A DNA stretch of 42,079 nt from Thermoleophilia bacterium (lineage in GTDB: Bacteria; Actinomycetota; Thermoleophilia; Gaiellales; Gaiellaceae): assembly GCA_029865325.1 (NCBI GenBank), contig JAOUHF010000009.1:1-42079 (forward strand), in the 5' to 3' direction. Below are positions 1,653-16,354 of this stretch, piece after piece. The notes beneath the pieces were generated by a model. It did no database searches and was not told the origin of the DNA. It worked only from the letters and a program-made list of their open reading frames with translations. Position 1 is the first letter of the stretch. Each line of letters opens with the position of its first letter. Both the position numbers and the translations under genes were made by a program.

Positions 1653-3548
1653 GTGCCCGGACGCCGCCGCAGGCGGGAGATCGAGATGGAGCGGGTGCTC
1701 GGCACGCCCGCGCTCTTCGCAACGGCGTACGGCAACGTCGGCTCCTCGATCTACTACGCACTCGGCCTCACCGCGGTCTACGCGCTAGGCCTCACACCGC
1801 TCGTCTTCGTCCTCGCCGGTATCGTCTTCGCGGCGACGGCCGCCACCTACGCCGAGGGCACGGCTCGCTTCCCCGAGGCGGGCGGCTCGGCGAGCTTCTC
1901 GCGCCACGCGTTCGACGAGCTCGTGAGCTTCACGGCCGGCTGGGCGCAGATGCTCGTCTACGTCGTCACCGTCGCCGTCTCGGCGTTCTTCGTCCCCCAT
2001 TACCTGTCGATCTTCTGGGAGCCGCTGCGGACGAACCCGTGGGACATCATCGGCGGCGTCATCGTGATCGTGGTGCTCGTCGCTCTGAACATCGTCGGCG
2101 TGCAGGAGGCGGCGAAGCTCTCGATCTCCCTCGCAGTCGTCGACTTCGCGACGCAGATCATGCTCGTGGGGGTCGGCTTCGTTCTTGTCCTCAGCCCTGA
2201 GATCCTCGTCGACAACGTCCACTGGGGTGTCGCGCCGACCTGGTCGAACCTCGCAATCTCGATCCCCGTCGCGATGCTCGCCTATACCGGTGTCGAGACC
2301 GTCTCGAACCTCGCCGAGGAAGCCCGTGATCCGGTCCGGACTGTCCCGAACGCGTACAAGCTCGTGGCCGGCGCCGTGTTCGCCATCTACTTCACGCTTC
2401 CGCTGGTCGCCCTCTCGGCGCTTCCAGTGAAAGAGATCGACGGCCAGCTGACGACGTTGCTCGCGCTGCCGCCCGAGGACGGGGGGTATGCCAACGATCC
2501 GATTCTCGGCGTCGTCAAGAACATCGGCCTCGAAGGGTTCCCGCTCGACGCGGCCGAGATCTACGTCGGCGTGCTGGCTGCGACGATCCTGTTCATCGCG
2601 ACGAACGCCGGCGTCATCGGCGCGTCGCGGATCACGTACTCGATGGCGACCTACCGGCAGCTCCCGGAGGCCCTGCGACGACTCCATCCGCGTTTCAAGA
2701 CTCCCTGGCTCTCGCTCGTCCTGTTCGCGGGTATCGCGCCGATCCTGGTGATCCTGCCCGGCGACGTGAACTTCGTCGGCACGCTGTACGCGCTGGGGGC
2801 CACGCTGTCGTTCACCGTGGCGCACGGGTCGATGGTGCGGTTGCGAATGCTGGATGGCCGCGGCGCCGAGATTCCGTACCTGGCACGTCCGAATCTTCGC
2901 CTCGGCGGCGTTGCGTGGCCGCTGTTCGCGATCCTGGGCGGGATCGCGACGGGGGCATCGTTCGCCGTCCTCGTCTACCAGAACCCCGCGACGCGCTGGG
3001 TCGGGCTCGGCTGGATGGCCCTCGGACTCGCTGGCTACGTCATCTACCGAAGGCGGCTGCACGTTCCGCTTCGCGCGATCGCAAAGGCGCCGCCGGCGTT
3101 CGGCCCCGCGCTCGCGCTCGAGTACCGCCGTCTCGTCGTTCCGGTGATCTCGGGTCAGCCGTCGAACGACGCGATGGACGTGGCGTGTCGCCTCGCCGCG
3201 GAGCGCGGCGCTCGCATCGTCGCTCTCAGCGTCATCGAGGTTCCTCTCGACCGCCAGCTCGGGGAGAGCCAGCCCGAGCTCGAGGTGGAGGCGAATCGCG
3301 AGCTGGACGAAGCCGTCGCCATCGGTGACTCGTACGGCTTGAAGGTCGTCGGTCGACTGGAGCGCGCACGCTCTGCCGCGAAGGCGATCGTGGACGAGGC
3401 CGAGGCGCGCGACGCCGAGATCATCGTGATCGGGTCGCCTCGTCGTCGCCTGACGAGCTCGCAGGCGGCCGTTTTCGGCAAGACGGTCGACTACGTTCTC
3501 AAGCACGCGCCGTGTCGCGTCCTCGTGACCGCGTCGGGGGCGTCGTGA
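1653..3548 (+). CDS. APC-superfamily permease with C-terminal universal stress (USP) domain, copy 1
   Basis: A 631-residue membrane transporter. About 12 hydrophobic segments fill residues 15-470 and a soluble USP-fold domain of about 140 residues closes the protein. TM1 reads AYGNVGSSIYYALG and TM6 carries YTGVETVSNLAEE, which are APC hallmarks. Annotation pipelines would probably call it an amino-acid permease. The APC-plus-USP architecture, the length, and the trkA/trkH neighbours also fit KimA-type potassium importers; the TM6 T..E pair matches the KimA ion-binding pair as I recall it. The USP domain lacks a clean G-2x-G-9x-G nucleotide loop. GTG 1653 is preferred because it aligns best with copy 2; ATG 1686, with GGGAGA before it, is the alternative. 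Its last bases overlap the next gene (GTGA). Confidence 0.8.
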   Translation: MPGRRRRREIEMERVLGTPALFATAYGNVGSSIYYALGLTAVYALGLTPLVFVLAGIVFAATAATYAEGTARFPEAGGSASFSRHAFDELVSFTAGWAQMLVYVVTVAVSAFFVPHYLSIFWEPLRTNPWDIIGGVIVIVVLVALNIVGVQEAAKLSISLAVVDFATQIMLVGVGFVLVLSPEILVDNVHWGVAPTWSNLAISIPVAMLAYTGVETVSNLAEEARDPVRTVPNAYKLVAGAVFAIYFTLPLVALSALPVKEIDGQLTTLLALPPEDGGYANDPILGVVKNIGLEGFPLDAAEIYVGVLAATILFIATNAGVIGASRITYSMATYRQLPEALRRLHPRFKTPWLSLVLFAGIAPILVILPGDVNFVGTLYALGATLSFTVAHGSMVRLRMLDGRGAEIPYLARPNLRLGGVAWPLFAILGGIATGASFAVLVYQNPATRWVGLGWMALGLAGYVIYRRRLHVPLRAIAKAPPAFGPALALEYRRLVVPVISGQPSNDAMDVACRLAAERGARIVALSVIEVPLDRQLGESQPELEVEANRELDEAVAIGDSYGLKVVGRLERARSAAKAIVDEAEARDAEIIVIGSPRRRLTSSQAAVFGKTVDYVLKHAPCRVLVTASGAS

Positions 3549-3724
3549 GCTTCTATCGCTGGTCCGTCGTGATCTTCTCGCTGATCTTCGTCGGGATGGG
3601 CATCGCGCTGCTCGTCCGCACCGCGGCAGAAGGAGGTGGAGTCGTGGGATTCCTCCTCGGCGGTCTCTTCATCGCCCTCGGCGTCGGGCGTTTCACGCTC
3701 GAACGCAAGCGCCATGGCTCGTAA
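3545..3724 (+). CDS. Small two-helix membrane protein between the permeases
   Basis: A 59-residue protein starting at GTG in a GTGA overlap with the upstream permease and ending 11 bases inside the downstream permease. Two hydrophobic stretches (about residues 4-22 and 32-50) are joined by a short Gly-rich loop, with a basic C-terminus (ERKRHGS). The tight overlaps on both sides imply translational coupling and co-expression with both transporters. No family is recognised. A small accessory subunit of the permeases is possible, but that is inferred from position only. Confidence 0.65.
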   Translation: MSFYRWSVVIFSLIFVGMGIALLVRTAAEGGGVVGFLLGGLFIALGVGRFTLERKRHGS

Positions 3725-5597
3725 GCTCCGCGGCTTCGAGCGCGTCCTCGACGCCCCCGCGCTCTTTGCGATCGCGTACGGGGAGATCGCGTCGTCCCTC
3801 TACATCGCGCTCGGGATCGTCGCCGCGCAGGCCCTTGGCCTCACGCCGCTCGTCCTGCTGCTCACGGGAGCGCTCTTCTTCGTGGTCTCGCTCTCCTACG
3901 CGGAGGGGACAGCGGCACTACCCGAGACGGGCGGGGCGGCGACGTTCGTCCGGCGTGCGTTCAACGATCTCGCCGGGTTCGTCACGGGATGGGTGCTCTT
4001 CCTCGACTTCCTGATCGTGATGGCGCTGTCCGCGCTCTTCGCTCCCCACTATCTGGGCGCGGCGATCTCCGCGCCATCGCTTCGCGACGATCCCTGGGAC
4101 GCACTCATAGGTTGCGGACTCATCGCTGCTATCGCCGGCGTCCGGCTCGTGCGGCGGACGCAGCTGCGCCTGGGATCGCTGGCGATCGCCCTCCTCGACC
4201 TTCTCGTCCAGGGAATCCTCGTCGTGCTGGGAATGGCGTTTCTCGTCTCTCCGAACGTCCTGGAGCAGGGATTCGGCTTCGAGGCCGGTCAGAGCTGGAG
4301 CGACCTGGCGTTTGCGCTTCCGCTTGCCATGCTCGCCTACACAGGTCTGGAGACGGTTTCCAATCTCGCGGAGGAGACTCGTGAGCCCGGTCGCACGCTG
4401 CCTCGCAGCATGTTCTCCGGAATCGGTCTCGTCGTCGTCGTAACCGTCGCGATCGCCCTGATCGGACTCTCTGCCTATCCGGTGGAGGCGGGACAGACCG
4501 CGCTGGGAGACGAGTGGCTTGAGGCCCCGCTCGTCGGCATTGCCGCGGCTTTCGACGGCTCGCTGCCCGATGTCGTGGTCGATCTCCTCCGCATCGCAGT
4601 GGGCATCTCGGGCGCGCTGATCCTGCTCGTGGCGGCGACGACTTCGGTGTCGGGAATCACCCGTCTGGCCCATTCGCTGGCCGAGCACGGGGCGCTGCCG
4701 CGTGAGTTGGCCCGTCTCGAACGTCGAGCGCTCGTTTCCCGCGAGGCGATCCTGATTGCGGCAGGCCTCGCGATCGGCCTCATCGTGCTCACGGAGGTCG
4801 TTGCCGAGGGCGACCCGGCTTTCCTCGCGAGCCTCTATTCGTTCGGCGTGCTCATCGCGTTCACCGCGGCACAACTGGCCGTGATCCGCCTCCGCATGCG
4901 CGAGCCAGATCTGGAGCGTCCTTTTCGCGCGCGCCCGAACGTACGCTTTCGGGGAATCTCGGTGCCCCTGCCGGCAGTCATCGGCATCCCGTTCACCTCA
5001 GGCATCTGGGTGCTGGCGATGCTGACCCATTCGGGGGCTCGGTATGCCGGCCCGCTGTGGTTGGGGGCGGGCCTCGTCGTCTTCGTTGCCGTCCGGCGGA
5101 AGCAGGAACGCGGTCTGCTCGAGCACGTCGAAGCGGTCACGGAGCTTCCAGCTGGAGCGCAGTTCGAGCGCATCCTCGTCCCAATCAAGCTCGGCGACAT
5201 CGGTGACGAGATGATCGCGACCGCGATCGCGCTCGCCAAGGAGCACGGCGGCTCGATCGAGGTGATCACCGTCGTTCGCGTGCCTCGGCGGTTCGAGCTT
5301 GCCGGGCCTCTGCCAAGCGATGTCGCGGCGAGGGTCGATGCGGCGCTCGAGGAAGCTCGCCTGCTCGGCGAGGAGCACGGTGTCACCGTGCAGACGGACG
5401 CCGTGCGCGCGCGATCGATCGGCCATGCGATCGTCGCCGAGGCTGCGGCTCGGGGTGCGGACGTTGTCGTCCTCGGCTCGTCGTCCCGCTGGCGACGCCA
5501 ATCGAGGTTCTTCTCACCGACGGTCGACTTCGTGCTCCGCAATGCGCACTGCGAAGTCCTTGTGGTTGCGTTCCCCGGCGGAGTCTTCGAGGAGTAG
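3714..5597 (+). CDS. APC-superfamily permease with C-terminal USP domain, copy 2
   Basis: A 627-residue paralogue of the permease at 1653, with the same layout: about 12 membrane helices and then a USP-like domain from about residue 480. TM1 reads AYGEIASSLYIALG and TM6 YTGLETVSNLAEE. Where copy 1 has Asn in TM1 this copy has Glu, so the two may differ in substrate or ion handling. ATG 3714 is chosen because the protein then begins MARKLRGFERVL, collinear with copy 1; the frame is open further upstream only over the small membrane gene. The USP part lacks a clear Gly-rich ATP loop. Next to K+ regulatory genes it may be a KimA-like K+ importer rather than an amino-acid permease; this is not settled. 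Confidence 0.8.
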   Translation: MARKLRGFERVLDAPALFAIAYGEIASSLYIALGIVAAQALGLTPLVLLLTGALFFVVSLSYAEGTAALPETGGAATFVRRAFNDLAGFVTGWVLFLDFLIVMALSALFAPHYLGAAISAPSLRDDPWDALIGCGLIAAIAGVRLVRRTQLRLGSLAIALLDLLVQGILVVLGMAFLVSPNVLEQGFGFEAGQSWSDLAFALPLAMLAYTGLETVSNLAEETREPGRTLPRSMFSGIGLVVVVTVAIALIGLSAYPVEAGQTALGDEWLEAPLVGIAAAFDGSLPDVVVDLLRIAVGISGALILLVAATTSVSGITRLAHSLAEHGALPRELARLERRALVSREAILIAAGLAIGLIVLTEVVAEGDPAFLASLYSFGVLIAFTAAQLAVIRLRMREPDLERPFRARPNVRFRGISVPLPAVIGIPFTSGIWVLAMLTHSGARYAGPLWLGAGLVVFVAVRRKQERGLLEHVEAVTELPAGAQFERILVPIKLGDIGDEMIATAIALAKEHGGSIEVITVVRVPRRFELAGPLPSDVAARVDAALEEARLLGEEHGVTVQTDAVRARSIGHAIVAEAAARGADVVVLGSSSRWRRQSRFFSPTVDFVLRNAHCEVLVVAFPGGVFEE

Positions 5598-5608
5598 GCT
5601 GACGCGCC

Positions 5609-6031
5609 GTGAAGGGGGTTGTCATCGGATGCGGGCGCGTGGGGTCTGCCGTCGCGCAAGGGCTCGCCACGGAGGGTTGGGACGTCACCGTGATCGACGA
5701 GAACGAGGACGCGCTTGCCCGCCTCGGGCTGGCCTGGCGTGGAGGATTCGTGATCGGGCACGGGATGGACACGACCGTGCTCGAGAGCGCAGGCGTGCGG
5801 GAAGCTGATGCCGCAGTCGTCGCGACCGACGGCGACAACACCAACATCGTCATCGGCCAGGTGCTCACGCAGCGGTACGAGATCGCGACGGTCGTCGTCA
5901 GGATCCTCGATCCCGCCAGGGCGAAGTTCTACTCGGATCGTGGCATGCAGACTGTCTGTCCCACTCAGACGGCGATCTCTGGTCTTCTGGAGACCGTACG
6001 CAGGACCACTCCTGAACCGGCGGCGTCCTGA
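5609..6031 (+). CDS. KTN (TrkA N-terminal) NAD-binding protein without RCK_C domain
   Basis: A 140-residue Rossmann protein. The N-terminus VIGCGRVGSAVAQ is the GxGxxG dinucleotide loop, and VTVIDEN ends strand 2 with an acidic residue, as in NAD(H)-binding TrkA domains. The usual RCK_C (TrkA_C) ligand domain is missing; the protein ends shortly after the KTN fold. GTG 5609 lies 8 nt after TAGGCT (5595-5600), whose TAG is also the stop codon of the upstream permease, so this gene may be transcribed leaderless as well as from the permease promoter. It overlaps the next gene by one base (TGATG). It probably pairs with the TrkA encoded downstream. Confidence 0.85.
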   Translation: MKGVVIGCGRVGSAVAQGLATEGWDVTVIDENEDALARLGLAWRGGFVIGHGMDTTVLESAGVREADAAVVATDGDNTNIVIGQVLTQRYEIATVVVRILDPARAKFYSDRGMQTVCPTQTAISGLLETVRRTTPEPAAS

Positions 6032-6699
6032 TGTACGTCATCGTCGCGGGCGGAGGAATGGTCGGATCGAATTCCACCCGCTCGCTGCTCGAGATGGGCC
6101 ATGAAGTGACGCTCGTCGAGCAACGTCCGGACCGGTTTGCCCGACTCGAGGAGGAGTTCGGCCCTGTCGCCATGCGCGGTGACGCCACAGAGATCATCGT
6201 GCTCGAGCGAGCCGGGATCGCCCGGCCCCCAGACCTCGTGCTCGCGGTGACGGGCGATGACGAGGACAACCTCGTCATCTCGCAGATCGCAAAGGAGGGC
6301 TACGGCGTCCGCAAGGCGATCGCGAGAGTGAACAACCCGCGCAACCAGCAGCACTTCGACCTGCTCGGGATCACGCAAACGGTATGCGCGACGACGAGCA
6401 TTCTCGGGCTCGTCGAGCACGAGATGCCAGAGCACGGTCTCGTCCGCCTGCTCGAGCTCCAGAAGGAAGGGCTCATCGTCGCCGAGGTGCAGGTCGAAGG
6501 TGGGTCTCCGGCGGCCGGGAAACGGGCCGGCGGGCTCGGCGTCCCTGCCGGTTCACGGTTGATCTCGGTCTTTCGCCACGGCCGGACGGAACTCGTGGAG
6601 GAGTCCACTGTCATTCGTCCGGGCGATCAGGTGCTTGCGGTCGTACCGACGGGTTCGGCTCCCGAGCTTCGCCGTGCTCTTCTCGGCGGTTCGAAGTAG
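6031..6699 (+). CDS. trkA: TrkA-family potassium channel regulator (KTN + RCK_C)
   Basis: A 222-residue cytoplasmic regulator of K+ uptake. VAGGGMVGS (residues 4-12) is the NAD-binding loop and VTLVEQ follows strand 2; the last 85 or so residues form an RCK_C domain. TrkA rings of this kind gate TrkH/KtrB channels in response to nucleotides. ATG overlaps the stop of the lone-KTN gene, so the two are translationally coupled. It is the last gene of the + operon with the permeases and faces the two trkH genes on the other strand; a 90-bp gap separates the ends. I see no convincing terminator hairpin there. Confidence 0.88.
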   Translation: MYVIVAGGGMVGSNSTRSLLEMGHEVTLVEQRPDRFARLEEEFGPVAMRGDATEIIVLERAGIARPPDLVLAVTGDDEDNLVISQIAKEGYGVRKAIARVNNPRNQQHFDLLGITQTVCATTSILGLVEHEMPEHGLVRLLELQKEGLIVAEVQVEGGSPAAGKRAGGLGVPAGSRLISVFRHGRTELVEESTVIRPGDQVLAVVPTGSAPELRRALLGGSK

Positions 6700-6788
6700 C
6701 ACTTCTCTGCCGAGCGGCGACCGTGACGGCAAAACCGGCCGCAGAAGGGCGAGGTGTGAATGCCGAGAAGGATCTTCCGCGTACTCGT

Positions 6789-8345
6789 TCAGGGCTTCCA
6801 GTACTGGCGGGTGAAGAGCAGGACGACGGGAATGATTTCGAGACGCCCGAGCCACATCAGCGCGATCATCGCCCCAGTCGAGATGTCGCTGAACTCGGAG
6901 AACGACGCCAGCGGGCCCGCATGGCCGAACGCCGGGCCCACGTTGCCGAGCGTCGTGGCGGCGACGGCCATCACCGTGATCGGCCGGAGGTCGGGCCCCT
7001 GGAGCGCGGTGTCGAAGGCGATGATCCCGGCGCCCACGACGAAGGCGCCGACGTAGAGAAGAACGAACGCGACGGCCGCCCGGAGCGTCCGCTCATCGAC
7101 GGCGATCCGGTTCAACCGGATGGGCGCGACGAGCTCGGGGTGCACGGTCGTGCGCAGATCGCGCCGGAGCACGCGACCGAGGAGGAGGTGGCGCACTACC
7201 TTGATCGAGCCTCCGGTCGAGCCCGCCGAGCCGCCGACGAACATCAGGGCGACGATCGTCATCAGCGCCAGCGTCGTCCAGCCGGTGAAGTCCACTGTCG
7301 CAAACCCCGTGGTGGTGAGGATCGAGACCGCTTGGAAGATGCCGTTGCGGAACGCGGCGTCGCTGCCGGTGAGCTCTCGCTCGAGGAGCTGGAGAATGAG
7401 GAGCCCCGAACCGAGAACCAGCAGCCCCGCGTAGAGACGGAGCTCCTCGTCCCGCAGCGCCGAGCGCACGCGACGGCGGACGAACGTGCGGTAGAGCAGC
7501 GCGAAGTTGACCCCAGCGAGGATCATGAACGCGATCAGCACCCATTGGGTCGCCGGTGCGAAGTCGGCGATCGAGTGCGGCTGCGTCGAGAAGCCGCCGG
7601 TCGGCATCGTCGAGAAGGCGTGAGCTACCGCCTCGTAGAGGCTCAACTGGTCGTCGACGCCTGTCCAGCCGAGTGTCGCCAGGATGACCACGAGCATCAC
7701 CGTCAGGGCGACATAAAGGCTCCACAGTCGTTGTGCGGTTTGGCGGATTCGCGTTCCGAGATCGTCGATCTCCGGCCCTGGAAGCTCCGACTCCATGAGC
7801 TGCCTTCCGCCGATACGAAGGCGCGGCAGCACTGCCAGCGCGAGCACGATGATCCCCATGCCGCCGATCCACTGCGTGAACTGCCTCCACATGGCCATCG
7901 AGCGGTTGAGCGCCTCGACGTCGGTGAGGATCGAGGAGCCGGTCGTCGTGAATCCCGACATCGACTCGAAGAAGGCGTCAATGGGCCGCTCGAGCTCGGG
8001 GTTGCCCGAGAGGAGATACGGGATCGTGCCCACCGCGGCCGCGAGCACCCAGGTGAGGGACACGACGAGGAAGCCCTCACGAAAGCCGACGACCTCGGAC
8101 CGATCGCCGCCGATCCGCTCGAGCGCGATGCCGAGCGCGGCGGTACCCGCTGCGGCGGCGACGAAGGGCCACGGCGACTCCCCGTAGCCAAGGGCCAGTG
8201 CGAGCGGAAGCAGCGGTGCCAGCGCGAGCCACTTGACGAGCGTGCCCACGAGCCCGAGCGCGCCGCGGATGTTGACCCCGATCCGTCTCGGCGGGGCTAT
8301 CGAGGGGTGGGCGTCAGGTCGCGTCGGCGCAGGTGCCGAGCTCAT
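6789..8345 (-). CDS. trkH: TrkH-family potassium uptake channel, copy 1
   Basis: A 518-residue membrane protein of the Trk/Ktr/HKT superfamily. The four pore loops are visible: SGFTTTGSS, MPTGGFST, TTTGFATV and GNVGPAFG, each with the filter glycine. It starts at ATG 8345, which overlaps the TGA of the upstream trkH (ATGA), and this decides the start; the frame is open further upstream only inside that gene. It is the third gene of a trkA-trkH-trkH operon. TrkH forms the K+ pathway and needs TrkA for gating. The N-terminal 25 residues are Pro/Ala-rich and variable. Confidence 0.92.
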   Translation of the reverse strand: MSSAPAPTRPDAHPSIAPPRRIGVNIRGALGLVGTLVKWLALAPLLPLALALGYGESPWPFVAAAAGTAALGIALERIGGDRSEVVGFREGFLVVSLTWVLAAAVGTIPYLLSGNPELERPIDAFFESMSGFTTTGSSILTDVEALNRSMAMWRQFTQWIGGMGIIVLALAVLPRLRIGGRQLMESELPGPEIDDLGTRIRQTAQRLWSLYVALTVMLVVILATLGWTGVDDQLSLYEAVAHAFSTMPTGGFSTQPHSIADFAPATQWVLIAFMILAGVNFALLYRTFVRRRVRSALRDEELRLYAGLLVLGSGLLILQLLERELTGSDAAFRNGIFQAVSILTTTGFATVDFTGWTTLALMTIVALMFVGGSAGSTGGSIKVVRHLLLGRVLRRDLRTTVHPELVAPIRLNRIAVDERTLRAAVAFVLLYVGAFVVGAGIIAFDTALQGPDLRPITVMAVAATTLGNVGPAFGHAGPLASFSEFSDISTGAMIALMWLGRLEIIPVVLLFTRQYWKP

Positions 8346-9892
8346 GCGCGCCAGTAGCTCCTCGTGAGAAGCACGATGATCGGCAGTACCTCGAGCCGTC
8401 CGAGCCACATGAGCGCGATCATGGTCGCGCTCGAGACGTCGCTGAAGGGCGCGTACGAATCCAGCGGACCGGCTGGACCGGCCGCAGGCCCCACGTTTCC
8501 GAGGGTCGCGGCAGCCGCTGAGATGGCATCGATCGGGAGCACGTCCGGTCCCTGTACGGCGGCGTCGACAGCGATCACACCGGCCCCCACGACGAACAGG
8601 CCGACATAGAGCAGGACGAACGAAACGATCGCGCGGAGCGTCCGCTCGTCGACCACGATCCCGCTCAGCCTGATCGGCATCACGACCTCCGGACGAAGGG
8701 TCTGCGTCAGCTCGCGGCGGAGCATGCGTCCGACGAGCAGGTGCCGCATGACCTTCACCGAGCCGGTCGTCGAGCCCGCGGCGCCGCCGACGAACATCAG
8801 CAAGACGAGCGTCATCAGCGCGAGCGTGGGCCAGGCTGCGAAGTCGACCGTCGCATAGCCCGTTCCGGTCATGATCGCGACGGCCTGGAACACGCCGTTG
8901 CGCAGAGGCGCTTCACTGCCCTCGATGGCCTTTGTGGCGAGCTCGGTGATGAGGACGGCGGAGGCCGCGACGAGAAGAATCGCGTACAGGCGGCTCTCTT
9001 CGTCGCGGAACGCGAGGCCCGGACGGCGACGTGCGAAGCTGCGGAAAAGCAGCGCGTAGTTCAGGCCTGCGATCACCATGAACCCAACGACCACCCACTG
9101 GGTGACGGCGGCGAACGCGCCGATCGACCCCGCCTGCGTGGAGAAGCCGCCTGTGGGCATCGTCGTGAACGCATGCGCGACCGCCTCGAAGAGGTTCATC
9201 CGGTCGTCGAGCCCCGTCCAGCCGATCAGCGCCAGGATTGCTACCTCGAGCGCCGTGAGTGAGACATAGAGAACCCACAGGCGCCGGACTGTCTGCCTGA
9301 TGCGCTCGCCGAGCTGGTCGACCTCGGGTCCGGGTAGCTCCGACTCCAGCAGCTGCCGGCCGCCGACGCGAAGCCGTGGTAGCACCGCGAGTGCGAGCAC
9401 GATGATCCCCAGCCCGCCCAGCCATTGCGTGAACTGGCGCCACATCGCGAGCGAGTGGGAGAGCGCGTCGAAGTCGGTGACCACGGTCGCGCCCGTCGTC
9501 GTGAATCCGGACATCGCCTCGAAGTACGCATCGAGGGGCCTGCCGAGCTGCTCGCCTCCGACGAACAGATACGGCAAAGAGCCGAACCCTGCGGCGAGGA
9601 GCCAGGTCAGCGAGACGACGAGGAATCCTTCGCGTGCGCCGACGCTCGACGCCGATCCGGGAGAGATCCGCTCGAGCGCAAGCCCGAACCCGCTCGTGAT
9701 CGCGCCTGCAGCGAGGAACGGCCAGACGGGCTCGTGGTACCAGAGCGCCACCAGTGCCGGGAAGAGCGCCACGAGGCCGAGGTACTTGCTGAGCGTTCCT
9801 AAGAGGTTGACCGAGGCCGCGATGTCGACGGCGATGAGTCGTCGTGGGCCGATCTGCGGAGGCGGGAGGACGACCTCCGACGTTGGGCTCAC
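8342..9892 (-). CDS. trkH: TrkH-family potassium uptake channel, copy 2
   Basis: A 516-residue paralogue of the adjacent TrkH. Pore loops read SGFTTTGAT, MPTGGFSTQ, MTGTGYATV and GNVGPAAGP. Pore 3 differs from copy 1 (GTGYAT against TTGFAT), which could alter ion preference or kinetics. GTG 9892 overlaps the TGA of the upstream trkA by four bases (GTGA). Two TrkH genes in one operon behind one TrkA suggest channels of different affinity sharing a regulator, or simple duplication; the sequences have diverged too far for a recent copy. Confidence 0.92.
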   Translation of the reverse strand: MSPTSEVVLPPPQIGPRRLIAVDIAASVNLLGTLSKYLGLVALFPALVALWYHEPVWPFLAAGAITSGFGLALERISPGSASSVGAREGFLVVSLTWLLAAGFGSLPYLFVGGEQLGRPLDAYFEAMSGFTTTGATVVTDFDALSHSLAMWRQFTQWLGGLGIIVLALAVLPRLRVGGRQLLESELPGPEVDQLGERIRQTVRRLWVLYVSLTALEVAILALIGWTGLDDRMNLFEAVAHAFTTMPTGGFSTQAGSIGAFAAVTQWVVVGFMVIAGLNYALLFRSFARRRPGLAFRDEESRLYAILLVAASAVLITELATKAIEGSEAPLRNGVFQAVAIMTGTGYATVDFAAWPTLALMTLVLLMFVGGAAGSTTGSVKVMRHLLVGRMLRRELTQTLRPEVVMPIRLSGIVVDERTLRAIVSFVLLYVGLFVVGAGVIAVDAAVQGPDVLPIDAISAAAATLGNVGPAAGPAGPLDSYAPFSDVSSATMIALMWLGRLEVLPIIVLLTRSYWRA

Positions 9893-11214
9893 AGAGCCTC
9901 GATCACCCAGGGCGCGTTCGAGGCCTCCGTGAAGACAATGACCCGATCGCCGATCTCGAGCACGTCGTCGCCGTGCGGGAAGATGGCAGATCCGTTTCGC
10001 ACGATCGCTCCGATCATCGCGCCGTGCACTGGCATGTCGCGGAACTTCGCCCCGATGTACCGGCTCGAGTCGCGCGTCGTCACGTCGAGCACCTCGTAGC
10101 GATTGCCCTCGAGCATCGCGACCTGCTGCGTGCGGGGGTCGTGTGCGAAGCGGACGATCTCTTCGGCCGTGACCGCGCGTGGATTGACGGCCACGTCGAT
10201 GCCTGCCTGGTCGAACGCGGCCAGCGATACGGCGTCGTGGGCGACCGCGATCGTGAACGGGACGCCGTGAACCCTTGCGAGCGACGCTGCGTAGAGGTTT
10301 CTGGCGTCGTCCCGCATGGCGAAGATCGCCGCTTGTGCGAGGCCGATGCGCTCGCGCTCGAGGAAGTCTGCCTCGAGTCCGGTCGCGTTGTAGACCCGCA
10401 CCTTCGAGAACGTCTCGGCGGCGGCCAGGGCTCGCTCGCGGGACGCCTCGATCATGCGAACGCCGATCCGCTGGTCGAGGAGGACTCGAGCGATCGCCGA
10501 GCCGACGCGGCCGGCGCCGAAGATCACGACGTCCTGCACCGCCGCGTCACCAGGAACGAGGAGCGCGCTCCATTCCTTCGCCGCCCGCGGCGAGCCGATG
10601 ACGACGACCCGGGAGCCTGGCTCGATCACGTCGTCGCCTCCCGGAAGCGTCATCTCGTTCTTGCGGATGATCGCCATGACCTTCGAGTCGCGCGGGAACT
10701 GCGCATGGCGGAGCGGAACTCCCGCGAGCTCCGCGGATGCACCCTCCTCGACGTCGAACTCGACGATCTGGACCTGCCCCTCGGCGAACACGTCAGTCTG
10801 GCGCGCGGCAGGAACGCCGATGATGCGGCTGATCGCGTGCGCGGTCTCGAGCTCGGGGCAGACGACGAAATCGACATCGAGTTGACCTTCCCGCCACAGG
10901 TCCACGTACTCGATCTCCGAGGTGCGGATGATCGTCTTCGCCTTCGGAGCTTCGCGGCGCGCGAACATCCCGGCGACGAGATTCACCTCGTTGCGCGACG
11001 TGCACGCGATGACGAGATCGGCGGTGCCGACGCCTGCCTGCGCGAGATCGCGCCTGCTCGTCCCGTCCCCCTCGAACGTGGCGACGTCGTAGCGGTACGC
11101 GATGGCCGAAAGCCGGGACAGCTCCGTGTCGAGCACTGTCAGCTCATGCTCGCCGTGGAGGGCGTCGACGACCGTGGATCCGACCTGGCCCGCACCGATG
11201 ATGAAGACCTTCAC
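9889..11214 (-). CDS. trkA: TrkA potassium uptake regulator, two-repeat form
   Basis: A 441-residue protein with two KTN-RCK_C units in tandem. GxGxxG loops occur at the N-terminus (IIGAGQVGSTVV) and about residue 225 (IFGAGRVGSAIA); each half ends in an RCK_C domain (GDDVIEPGSRVVV and GDDVLEIGDRVIV mark their last strands). This is the classic E. coli-type TrkA layout. It is the first gene of the - strand trkA-trkH-trkH operon. GTG 11214 lies 8 nt after TACGCT on its strand, so the mRNA is probably leaderless. It shares a 56-bp divergent promoter region with the sugar dehydrogenase gene. Confidence 0.92.
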   Translation of the reverse strand: MKVFIIGAGQVGSTVVDALHGEHELTVLDTELSRLSAIAYRYDVATFEGDGTSRRDLAQAGVGTADLVIACTSRNEVNLVAGMFARREAPKAKTIIRTSEIEYVDLWREGQLDVDFVVCPELETAHAISRIIGVPAARQTDVFAEGQVQIVEFDVEEGASAELAGVPLRHAQFPRDSKVMAIIRKNEMTLPGGDDVIEPGSRVVVIGSPRAAKEWSALLVPGDAAVQDVVIFGAGRVGSAIARVLLDQRIGVRMIEASRERALAAAETFSKVRVYNATGLEADFLERERIGLAQAAIFAMRDDARNLYAASLARVHGVPFTIAVAHDAVSLAAFDQAGIDVAVNPRAVTAEEIVRFAHDPRTQQVAMLEGNRYEVLDVTTRDSSRYIGAKFRDMPVHGAMIGAIVRNGSAIFPHGDDVLEIGDRVIVFTEASNAPWVIEAL

Positions 11215-13396: not shown

Positions 13397-13411
13397 GGCT
13401 CGCCCTCCAAT

Positions 13412-13560
13412 CAAGGAGCACGGTGAGGGAACCCGGTGCAAGTCCGGGACGGTCCCGCCGCTGTAAGGGGAGTAGCTCCCCCGCCACGAAGCCACTGGCG
13501 CAAGCCGGGAAGGCGGCGAGGGAGGGAGCCCCGAGTCAGAAGACCTGTCGCGCTCCTCAT
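13412..13560 (+). promoter_or_regulatory. Cobalamin (B12) riboswitch
   Basis: The region has the adenosylcobalamin riboswitch elements in order: GGTGCAAGTCCGGGACGGTC with CCGCCGCTGTAA, then GCCACTG (13491), GGGAAGG, and the B12 box AGTCAGAAGACCTG (13534-13547). AGGAGC (13414-13419) and GCTCCT (13552-13557) can close helix P1. It lies 35 bases before the start of a cobalamin transporter operon, so bound B12 should repress that operon. Confidence 0.95.
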
Positions 13561-13594
13561 AACCGGCTGACCCCTCGCGGAAGGGAGGATTCAG

Positions 13595-14509
13595 GTGCTT
13601 CGCTTCACAGCTCTCGTCACCGGCGCGTTGGTGGCGGCGTTCTCCCTGCTCGTCGCCGGAGCGGCAGGTGGCGGCTCGTCTCCGGACTCGTTCCCCGTGA
13701 CGATCGTTGCTTCGAACGGCAAGGTCACTGTTGGGAAGAGGCCGCGCCGGATCGTGTCTCTCTCGCCCACGGCGACGGAATCGCTGTTCGCTATCGGTGC
13801 CGGCTCGCAAGTCGTCGCGGTCGACGACCAGTCCGACGTCCCGAAGGCCGCCCCGAGGACGTCGCTCTCCGGCTACACCCCGAACGTCGAGGCCATCGCC
13901 GGCTATCGACCCGATCTGGTCGTCATCGCGTACGACCCCAAGGGGCTCTCGGGGGCATTGCGGAAGCTCGGGATCACCGTCATCCACCACGACGGCGCCG
14001 CGACGTTCAAGGGCGCGTACCAGCAGATGAGGCAACTCGGTCTCGTCACCGGGCATGAGGCCGAAGCGACGCGGCTGATCGACCGCATGAAGTCGAAGAT
14101 CGCCGGCATCGTCTCCACGGCGCGCAAGGCCGGCGGCGGGCTCTCCGTGTACCACGAGCTGACGCCCGACCTCTACTCCGCGACCTCGAAGACGTTCGTC
14201 GGCAAGGTCTACCTCTCACTGGGCCTCCGGAACATCGCCGACGAGGCCGACTCGGTCGGCGCCGGCTATCCGCAGCTCTCCGCCGAGTACGTCGTGTCGA
14301 CGAGCCCCGACGTCATCGTGCTGGCCGACACCGTGTGCTGCGGGCAGAAACCCTCGACCGTCGCCTCACGGCCAGGTTGGGATCACATACGCGCCGTGCG
14401 CACCGGGTCGATCGTCCGCATCGACGACTCGATCGCATCGCGCTGGGGCCCGCGGCTCGTGAACTTCTTCCGGGCGATGTCCTCGGCGCTCGCGCGACTT
14501 CGCCAGTAA
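13595..14509 (+). CDS. btuF: Cobalamin ABC transporter substrate-binding protein
   Basis: A 304-residue exported binding protein of the helical-backbone metal/cobalamin receptor family. The first 26 or so residues are a signal peptide. RRIVSLSPTATESLFAIG and ASRPGWDHIRAVRTGSI are typical of BtuF/FecB proteins. GTG 13595 is preceded by AAGGGAGGA at good spacing. The upstream B12 riboswitch identifies the ligand as a corrinoid. No lipobox cysteine is apparent, so membrane attachment is unclear. Confidence 0.93.
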   Translation: MLRFTALVTGALVAAFSLLVAGAAGGGSSPDSFPVTIVASNGKVTVGKRPRRIVSLSPTATESLFAIGAGSQVVAVDDQSDVPKAAPRTSLSGYTPNVEAIAGYRPDLVVIAYDPKGLSGALRKLGITVIHHDGAATFKGAYQQMRQLGLVTGHEAEATRLIDRMKSKIAGIVSTARKAGGGLSVYHELTPDLYSATSKTFVGKVYLSLGLRNIADEADSVGAGYPQLSAEYVVSTSPDVIVLADTVCCGQKPSTVASRPGWDHIRAVRTGSIVRIDDSIASRWGPRLVNFFRAMSSALARLRQ

Positions 14510-14513
14510 GCGA

Positions 14514-15578
14514 ATGAGCGTCGCTGCGGAGCGGGCGAGTAGCGTTCGGGCGCGCGGGCTCACGCCCGCGTGGGCCTGCTCCGCGGTGGCGTTCCTTCTC
14601 CTCTCGCTCGCAATCGGAGTTCTCGCCGGCCCCATCGACCTCGGGTTCGGCGCGGTGCTCGAGTCGGCAGCCGCGCGCCTGCACGTACCGGGTGCCTCCA
14701 CGTCTCTCACGCCGACCGAGGAGGCGATCCTGTGGGAGATTCGCGTTCCACGAGTGATCCTTGCGGCGCTCGTCGGCGCGATGCTGGCGTCGGCCGGTGC
14801 GACCTATCAAGGCGTCTTCCGCAATCCCCTGGCCGATCCGTACCTTCTCGGCGTCGCTGCAGGTGCAGGTCTCGGAGCGACGATCGCGATCGCGTATCTT
14901 CCCGAGGGGTTGCGTGGACAGCGTGCGCTCCCGATCGCGGCTTTCGTCGGCGGATCGGTGGCAGTCATGCTCACCTACGCGGTCGGCCGTTCGGCGAAGC
15001 GCGAACGCGACGCGGCAACGCTCGTCCTTGCGGGCGTCACTGTGGCGGCGTTCTTCACGGCCTGGCAGACGTTCGTCCAGCAGCAAAACGCCGAGACGTT
15101 GCAGCAGGTGTACTCCTGGATCCTCGGGAACATTCCGAGCACGGGCTGGGCCGACGTGTGGCTGATCCTTCCGTACGTCGCCGTCGCGATCGTCGTCATC
15201 CTCGCGCTGCGACGCGTCGTCGACGTCCTGAGCCTCGGCGACGACGAGGCGGCCAGCCTCGGTGTCAACGTCCGGCGAGTGCGGCTCGCTCTCGTCATCG
15301 CGGCGACACTCGGCACCGCAGCCGCAGTCGCTGTGAGCGGACTCATCGGCTTCGTCGGAATCATCGTCCCGCACGCGATCCGCCTCGTGTCTGGCGTCGG
15401 TTATCGGGCCCTCCTTCCGCTGTCCGTGATCATCGGTGCCGGGTTCCTCGTGCTCGCCGACGTGGTCGCCCGCACCGCGCTCTCGCCCGCCGAGATCCCG
15501 CTCGGCGTCGTGACCGCGTTTTTCGGCGCGCCGTTCTTCGCACTCGTGCTGCGGACGACGCGGGGAGGAAGCTCGTGA
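14514..15578 (+). CDS. btuC: Cobalamin ABC transporter permease (FecCD family)
   Basis: A 354-residue inner-membrane permease with about ten helices. IRVPRVILAALVGAMLASAG and GVFRNPLADPYLLGVAAGAG (residues about 70-125) and FVGIIVPHAIRLVSG near residue 285 are FecCD hallmarks; the last contacts the ATPase. ATG 14514 follows the btuF stop by four bases and the end overlaps the ATPase start. It moves B12 delivered by the binding protein encoded upstream. Confidence 0.94.
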   Translation: MSVAAERASSVRARGLTPAWACSAVAFLLLSLAIGVLAGPIDLGFGAVLESAAARLHVPGASTSLTPTEEAILWEIRVPRVILAALVGAMLASAGATYQGVFRNPLADPYLLGVAAGAGLGATIAIAYLPEGLRGQRALPIAAFVGGSVAVMLTYAVGRSAKRERDAATLVLAGVTVAAFFTAWQTFVQQQNAETLQQVYSWILGNIPSTGWADVWLILPYVAVAIVVILALRRVVDVLSLGDDEAASLGVNVRRVRLALVIAATLGTAAAVAVSGLIGFVGIIVPHAIRLVSGVGYRALLPLSVIIGAGFLVLADVVARTALSPAEIPLGVVTAFFGAPFFALVLRTTRGGSS

Positions 15579-16354
15579 CGGCGATCGAGCTGAAGGACGT
15601 CACCGTCGTCCTCGGCGGGCGCCCGGTCGTCGACGGGATCGACGCGTCGGTGGCCGAGGGAGAGTGGCTCGCGCTCATCGGCCCGAACGGCGCCGGGAAG
15701 ACAACGCTCCTGCGAGCGATCGCGCGGCTCGTCTCGTTCTCCGGTCTCATCGCGCTCGGAGGCCGCTCGGTCAGAGAGGTGCCCCGCGTCGAACTCGCCC
15801 GCCTCATCGCGGTCGTGCCGCAGGAGCCGTCGACGCCTGCCTGGATGACGGTCGGCGAATACGTGCTCCTCGGCCGTACTCCACATCTCGGCCCGCTGGC
15901 GAAAGAGGGTAGGCGCGACCGTGAAGCCGCCGCCCGCGCGGTCGCTCGCCTGGACCTGATCGGCTACGAGGAGCGCCGTCTCGGCACGCTCTCCGGGGGG
16001 GAGAAGCAGCGAGCGGTCGTCGCCCGAGCGCTTGCCCAGGAGGCGCGCATCATCCTTCTCGACGAGCCCACAGCGGCGCTCGACATCGGCCATCAACAGC
16101 AGGCCTTCGACCTGCTCGACGCCCTGCGCGCGGAATCGGGGCTGACCCTCGTCGCGGCCATGCACGACCTCACCCTGGCGGCGCAGTACGCCGGTCGCAT
16201 GGTCCTCCTCGACGGCGGGCGGGTCGTGGCCGAAGGGGTCCCGCGCGATGTTCTCACCGAGAAGCTGATCGCAAGCCACTATGGCGCGTCGATCGCTGTC
16301 GTTCCCGTCGGCGACCGGATCGCCGTGATTCCGCGCCGCGAACGAGCCTCATAA
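15575..16354 (+). CDS. btuD: Cobalamin ABC transporter ATP-binding protein
   Basis: A 259-residue ABC ATPase. Walker A is GPNGAGKT (residues 36-43), the signature LSGGEKQR, Walker B IILLDEP and the H-loop AAMHDL. The GTG start overlaps the permease stop (GTGA), so the three genes are one riboswitch-controlled operon. The protein powers corrinoid import. Confidence 0.94.
   Translation: MTAIELKDVTVVLGGRPVVDGIDASVAEGEWLALIGPNGAGKTTLLRAIARLVSFSGLIALGGRSVREVPRVELARLIAVVPQEPSTPAWMTVGEYVLLGRTPHLGPLAKEGRRDREAAARAVARLDLIGYEERRLGTLSGGEKQRAVVARALAQEARIILLDEPTAALDIGHQQQAFDLLDALRAESGLTLVAAMHDLTLAAQYAGRMVLLDGGRVVAEGVPRDVLTEKLIASHYGASIAVVPVGDRIAVIPRRERAS

Follow-up and report, generated by a model that had tools for sequence, protein, structure and literature searches.

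What is carried by the two APC-USP permeases encoded near the start of this stretch of Thermoleophilia DNA (42,079 nucleotides, the window hereafter)? A sequence-only reading of the locus had proposed that the pair, here called APC1 and APC2, are KimA-like K+ importers in a potassium cluster. We find that APC1, a microprotein, APC2 and two KTN proteins are a single tightly packed unit on the + strand, and that this five-gene unit is probably a KUP-like K+ importer made of two APC chains and the microprotein and served by split KTN (RCK-type) regulators. The potassium role in the earlier proposal is supported by linkage to KTN and KimA genes, by the residues of the ion site and by the absence of any other tested importer in six relatives, but membership of the KimA family is not supported by the trees or the nearest solved sequences. 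In our best reading the module works like KimA, yet is not a member of the KimA family. The genes concerned are the following.

1653 to 3548, + strand: APC1, an APC-superfamily permease with 12 transmembrane helices (TM) and a C-terminal USP domain; alternative ATG start at 1686
3545 to 3724, + strand: microprotein, 59 amino acids, two-helix, GTG start overlapping the APC1 stop (GTGA); unannotated
3714 to 5597, + strand: APC2, the second APC-USP permease, 627 amino acids counted from the ATG
5609 to 6031, + strand: KTNs, 140 amino acids, TrkA_N only, GxGxxG nucleotide loop; CeoB-like position
6031 to 6699, + strand: KTNl, 222 amino acids, TrkA_N and TrkA_C; CeoC-like position; first base overlaps the KTNs stop
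6789 to 8408, - strand: TrkH copy 1, part of a separate, convergent Trk system
8342 to 9892, - strand: TrkH copy 2, part of the same Trk system
9889 to 11214, - strand: full-length two-KTN TrkA, 441 amino acids, two TrkA_N and two TrkA_C stretches

Every gene named by the sequence-only reading is present, but its + strand 'TrkA' is the half-size, single-KTN protein of 222 amino acids with one TrkA_N and one TrkA_C, so that the two + strand KTN proteins, both with intact GxGxxG loops, look jointly like a single TrkA divided into halves. Because 3545 to 3724 is a separate conserved gene of 59 codons, the start of APC2 is most likely the ATG at 3714 and not the GTG at 3636. APC1 and APC2 each match PF13520 (AA_permease_2, ~1e-36) and PF00582 (Usp, ~1e-18), and also PF00324. 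The earlier caution that 'amino-acid permease' is an unsafe name for them was justified: the PF13520 match of Bacillus KimA (1.3e-41) is no weaker than theirs, and the label therefore carries no substrate information.

At the ion site these proteins resemble KimA. In KimA the K+ ligands are Asp36, Tyr43, Thr230 and Tyr377, Glu233 is essential and proton-coupling, and Asp117, Tyr118, Thr121, Ser125 and Asn237 have further roles (PMC6994465, PMC10284832); the essential KimA residues and the c-di-AMP binding named in the sequence-only reading agree with these papers. We compared sites by aligning 121 membrane domains, with a sample of about 56 amino-acid carriers and a KimA reference sequence checked against PDB 6s3k. 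At the positions of KimA Asp36, Tyr43, Asp117, Tyr118, Thr121, Ser125, Thr230, Glu233, Asn237 and Tyr377, APC1 has Asn28, Tyr34, Val102, Tyr103, Thr106, Ser110, Thr212, Glu215, Asn219 and Tyr379, and APC2 (numbered from its ATG) has Glu24, Tyr30, Asp98, Phe99, Val102, Ser106, Thr210, Glu213, Asn217 and Tyr375; equivalents of Tyr43, Ser125, Thr230, Glu233, Asn237 and Tyr377 are thus found in both chains. Tyr43, Thr230 and Tyr377 are kept in the family, although 7 of 22 APC2 sequences carry Phe in place of Tyr377. At the Asp36 position APC2 has Glu and APC1 has Asn, apart from one solo APC1 lineage that has Asp. The TM6 T-G-x-E motif and the TM1 Asn or Glu pointed out earlier are accordingly real and conserved across the family. 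The residue equivalent to Glu233 is Glu in all aligned APC1 and APC2 members but is not diagnostic alone; because its Gly and its acidic residue are common to many amino-acid carriers, the TGxE motif by itself is weak evidence, and its informative residue is the Thr.

Each column was scored as KimA-like or amino-acid-carrier-like, with significance taken from 20,000 permutations. The four K+ ligand columns score +1.9 in APC1 (permutation p 0.00175) and +2.15 in APC2 (p 0.0003), none of the 20,000 permutations reached the score observed for the ten functional positions, and CAT-type carriers, the control, are negative at nearly all ion-site columns. In amino-acid carriers of the APC family a GxG loop holds the substrate carboxylate. 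This loop reads GSS or ASS in nearly all aligned APC1 and APC2 members, its third position being Ser in APC1 and nearly all APC2 and Gly in 40 of 56 amino-acid carriers. The TM1 string YG[N/D/E]-[V/I]-[G/A]-S-S resembles the YGDIGTS of KUP proteins such as E. coli Kup (shared pattern YG[D/N/E]-[IV]-[GA]-[ST]-S), as does the TG-x-E of TM6. Since the profile-profile comparison with KUP is not significant (hhalign probability <1%), we take this as resemblance of the site and not as evidence of homology; the C-terminus differs, and APC1 and APC2 have no PF02705 match.

Gene order links the permeases to potassium genes well beyond the window. Among relatives found in Thermoleophilia (Gaiellales and neighbours, Solirubrobacterales), APC1 is followed on the same strand by APC2, KTNs and KTNl in 50 of the 66 loci with enough downstream sequence, all but one partner was detected in 4, and the other 12 hold solo APC1 genes from other lineages. 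Because it recurs in dozens of species-level genomes, this order is not due to chance. TrkH is present in only 13 of the loci, and a true KimA gene lies within the same cluster in 11. In actinobacterial genomes of other families true KimA genes, which carry the Asp36...Tyr43 motif, adjoin a homologous KTNs-KTNl pair in 11 of the 15 loci examined, and many actinobacterial genomes with KimA beside a KTN pair have neither TrkH nor KtrB. We found no paper in the literature searched that describes an APC-USP/KTN module.

The distribution of importers points the same way. These were sought family by family, as PF02386 (TrkH/KtrB), PF02705 (KUP), PF03814 (KdpA) and KimA. In the window's genome no PF13520 protein was found besides APC1 and APC2, and no PF02386 protein besides those of the two TrkH genes; neither KUP (PF02705) nor KdpA was found, and the KimA search returned APC1 and APC2 only. 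Among 37 genomes compared, chosen since nearly all carry either kind of KTN-pair cluster, 24 have no PF02386 match. Six of these, module-bearing relatives in the window's own family (G015, G016, G024, G028, G031 and G035; completeness 86-94%) lack PF02386, PF02705 and PF03814 in a search that did not extend to K+ channels, and there the KimA search returned APC-USP proteins only. To control for the chance that recognisable importers are just missing from genomes of this kind, we read the first 1.2 of 2.6 Mb of G007, a congener in a single contig without the APC-USP pair, and found TrkA-TrkH-TrkH at 85, 76 and 76% identity. The module and Trk can thus each occur alone, G007 having Trk without the module and the six relatives the reverse.

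Also part of the unit is a conserved membrane microprotein, so far unannotated, with the sequence MSFYRWSVVIFSLIFVGMGIALLVRTAAEGGGVVGFLLGGLFIALGVGRFTLERKRHGS (GTG start written as M); it is hydrophobic, and two helices can be read from its sequence. Of 59 APC1-APC2 gaps, 53 hold a recognisable open reading frame of this kind, and in 41 of these 53 its start overlaps the APC1 stop by 4 bases. Changes relative to the nearest relative number 4, 3 and 24 at codon positions 1, 2 and 3 (24 of 31 at the third), and relative to the next relative 9, 9 and 38. A profile built from these proteins matches every examined locus with an APC1-APC2 gap, including loci outside the building set, and has no match in any examined solo-APC1 or KimA locus. 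Against Pfam and NCBIfam the microprotein gave only sub-threshold matches, with no family above cut-off. We propose that it may be a small membrane subunit of the importer.

Phylogeny separates the APC-USP proteins from KimA without assigning them to another sampled group. With both IQ-TREE and FastTree, APC1 and APC2 form a separate clade outside the KimA clade, which speaks against KimA-family membership. In unrooted trees they and a third paralogue, APC3, form their own clade, with KimA and KUP to one side of it and the amino-acid carriers to the other. This clade lies within no characterised carrier clade among the ~56 carriers sampled, and the proteins are so not placed firmly among characterised amino-acid carriers, the placement that together with a lack of K+ uptake would have spoken against the sequence-only reading. 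Structure prediction and alignment to KimA, which that reading had recommended, gave AlphaFold2 models of mean pLDDT 90 (APC1) and 87 (APC2). The predicted fold is KimA-like across two domains: c-di-AMP-bound KimA matches both models over both domains. Foldseek ranks it first for APC2 and third for APC1, and in either case it shares the top Z, though it is advantaged by its second domain. APC3, which two order-level relatives encode beside a true KUP gene (L066:9927-11942, L067:299-2224), retains a GxG-like TM1 (AYPGVGSGVY) and lacks most KimA ligands, residues that suggest it may have another substrate.

Several observations weigh against the K+ importer reading. In overall sequence the membrane domain matches cationic amino-acid carriers (5oqt, 6.6e-28) better than KimA (2.4e-14), and taken alone it fits CAT, ApcT and BasC at a root-mean-square deviation of ~2.5, lower than to KimA. 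The site matches depend on alignment around a one-residue gap in TM1 relative to KimA. KimA D36N is dead (PMC6994465), yet APC1 carries Asn at that position, and the Glu of APC2 is absent from the KimA variants named for position 36 in the text consulted; APC2 also lacks an equivalent of Thr121, and APC1 one of Asp117. Some APC1 homologues stand alone beside MFS or metabolic genes. Finally, the genomes are mostly metagenome-assembled, and their incompleteness, with K+ channels outside the search, weakens arguments from absence.

APC1 and APC2 could be CAT-like amino-acid (or polyamine/osmolyte) carriers under K+-responsive KTN control, importing for example a counter-ion such as glutamate or a compatible solute alongside K+. 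GkApcT and plant CAT4 are their closest solved sequences, carriers of this type (5oqt, 6f34) share their low-rmsd fold, and the mean column log-ratio over the membrane domain (-1.2, i.e. amino-acid-carrier-like) and the PF13520 and PF00324 matches fit as well. We nevertheless consider this unlikely, given that the GxG carboxylate motif and the substrate-site residues of such carriers are not conserved while the KimA ion ligands are present, that KimA matches PF13520 as strongly, and that six relatives would be left without a recognised K+ importer. It is more improbable still that the pair moves another monovalent or organic cation (Na+, NH4+, a small amine) with KTN proteins sensing redox or nucleotide state: having Asn or Glu where KimA has its crucial TM1 Asp could alter selectivity, and D36N abolishes K+ uptake in KimA, but the KTN/TrkA and KimA neighbourhood and the complementary occurrence with Trk speak for potassium. 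Hardly any weight can be given to the KTN pair serving the convergent TrkH proteins with the permease genes as mere operon passengers, for although TrkH adjoins in the window and in 13 loci, a full-length TrkA already accompanies the TrkH pair, genomes with no TrkH still keep the APC-KTN order, and Trk genes occur in G007 without APC1 and APC2.

Our preferred reading remains that the five-gene unit is probably a K+ importer. Its gene order, the microprotein, the pattern of ion-site residues, the predicted fold and the lack of other tested K+ importers in six relatives are what the data show; from these we infer K+ as substrate, H+ coupling, a heteromeric assembly and gating by KTN proteins. 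APC2, and perhaps APC1, would have a LeuT-fold core with a KUP/KimA-type ion site, to which TM1 contributes a carboxylate or carboxamide and a Tyr, TM6 the Thr-Gly-x-Glu and TM10 a further Tyr. On the model of KimA, K+ would bind between TM1, TM6 and TM10 and move inward with protons, the TM6 Glu being the putative proton-coupling residue, and the USP domains would pair APC1 with APC2, as KimA dimerises via its cytosolic domains. Glu24 suggests that APC2 may be the active chain; because of its Asn28 and the dead KimA D36N, APC1 would be poor for K+ alone and probably acts beside APC2 as its partner or as a regulatory protomer. KTNs and KTNl would be nucleotide-sensing (NAD(H)/ATP-type) gating subunits of the APC carrier, not of TrkH.

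Among known systems, KimA (YdaO), the Bacillus subtilis K+/H+ symporter (PDB 6s3k, 8b70, 8b71), shares with APC1 and APC2 a 12-helix LeuT-fold APC domain followed by a C-terminal Rossmann-like cytosolic domain, and KimA of actinobacteria shares the KTN-pair neighbourhood. Unlike KimA, the module has two paralogous chains and a microprotein, and its cytosolic domains match Pfam Usp, which that of KimA does not. The cytosolic domain of KimA binds c-di-AMP (PMC6994465, PMC10284832). No diadenylate cyclase (PF02457) was detected in 11 genomes of the window's genus (g1, G000-G010), whereas most other genera of the wider family have one; barring a divergent enzyme, c-di-AMP is therefore an unlikely ligand in this organism, and its binding by the module is doubtful in this genus, where c-di-AMP signalling may have been lost. 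No c-di-AMP riboswitch lies in the window above Rfam gathering thresholds, which returned only a cobalamin riboswitch and one tRNA.

The split KTN pair adjoining an APC-type permease also recalls CeoB/CeoC of Mycobacterium tuberculosis, where Rv2690c adjoins ceoB (PMC12216072), an adjacency matched by KimA beside the KTN pair in the actinobacterial loci above. The difference is that Rv2690c is expected to be a true KimA homologue, where here there is an APC-USP pair with a microprotein. The portions of the CeoBC literature covered by our search present CeoB and CeoC as a K+ uptake system, called a Trk system, and mention neither TrkH, Rv2690c nor a membrane partner. According to a Streptomyces review (PMC10117811), S. 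venezuelae has KimA-like proteins but neither TrkH nor KtrB. In other actinobacteria CeoB/CeoC-type pairs would probably serve the neighbouring KimA likewise.

Other features of the loci can be noted briefly. The TrkH genes (6789-9892) are an overlapping tandem duplicate, found as the same tandem pair in G007 and L149, and their probable partner is the full-length TrkA at 9889 to 11214. Neither a significant RNA fold nor a convincing terminator was found in the interval between KTNl and TrkH, and no sigma-70-like promoter was found around the module. The cobalamin riboswitch (98 bits, 13404-13566) lies directly 5' of a periplasmic-binding-protein/permease/ATPase operon (13595-16354) whose gene content is consistent with an importer of B12 or a related metal chelate. 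Solo APC1 genes in L186-L188 and L191 have Asp at the KimA Asp36 position (AYGDVGSSIYY) and lack APC2, the microprotein and the KTN pair; the neighbours of solo APC1 (MFS, HypD/AIRS, LacI-type and histidine-biosynthesis genes) give no hint of function. Four contigs labelled Acidobacteriota or Bifidobacterium breve (L157, L199, L202, L205) carry this Thermoleophilia-type family and are probably mislabelled or misbinned metagenome-assembled genomes.

Bacteria cannot do without K+ uptake, but no recognised importer is found in several of these actinobacteria. More tentatively, and with somewhat less than even confidence, we suggest that the module represents a new family of KUP-like importers, in which a heteromer of two APC-USP chains and the two-helix microprotein is gated by a split KTN pair, and that in actinobacteria generally, mycobacterial CeoB/CeoC included, the partner under RCK-type control is not a TrkH/KtrB channel but a secondary transporter of APC fold. 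If KTN pairs do gate APC-fold symporters, the question of the CeoB/CeoC partner would be answered, RCK/KTN control would extend beyond channel-like transporters, and proteins labelled amino-acid permeases could be K+ importers.

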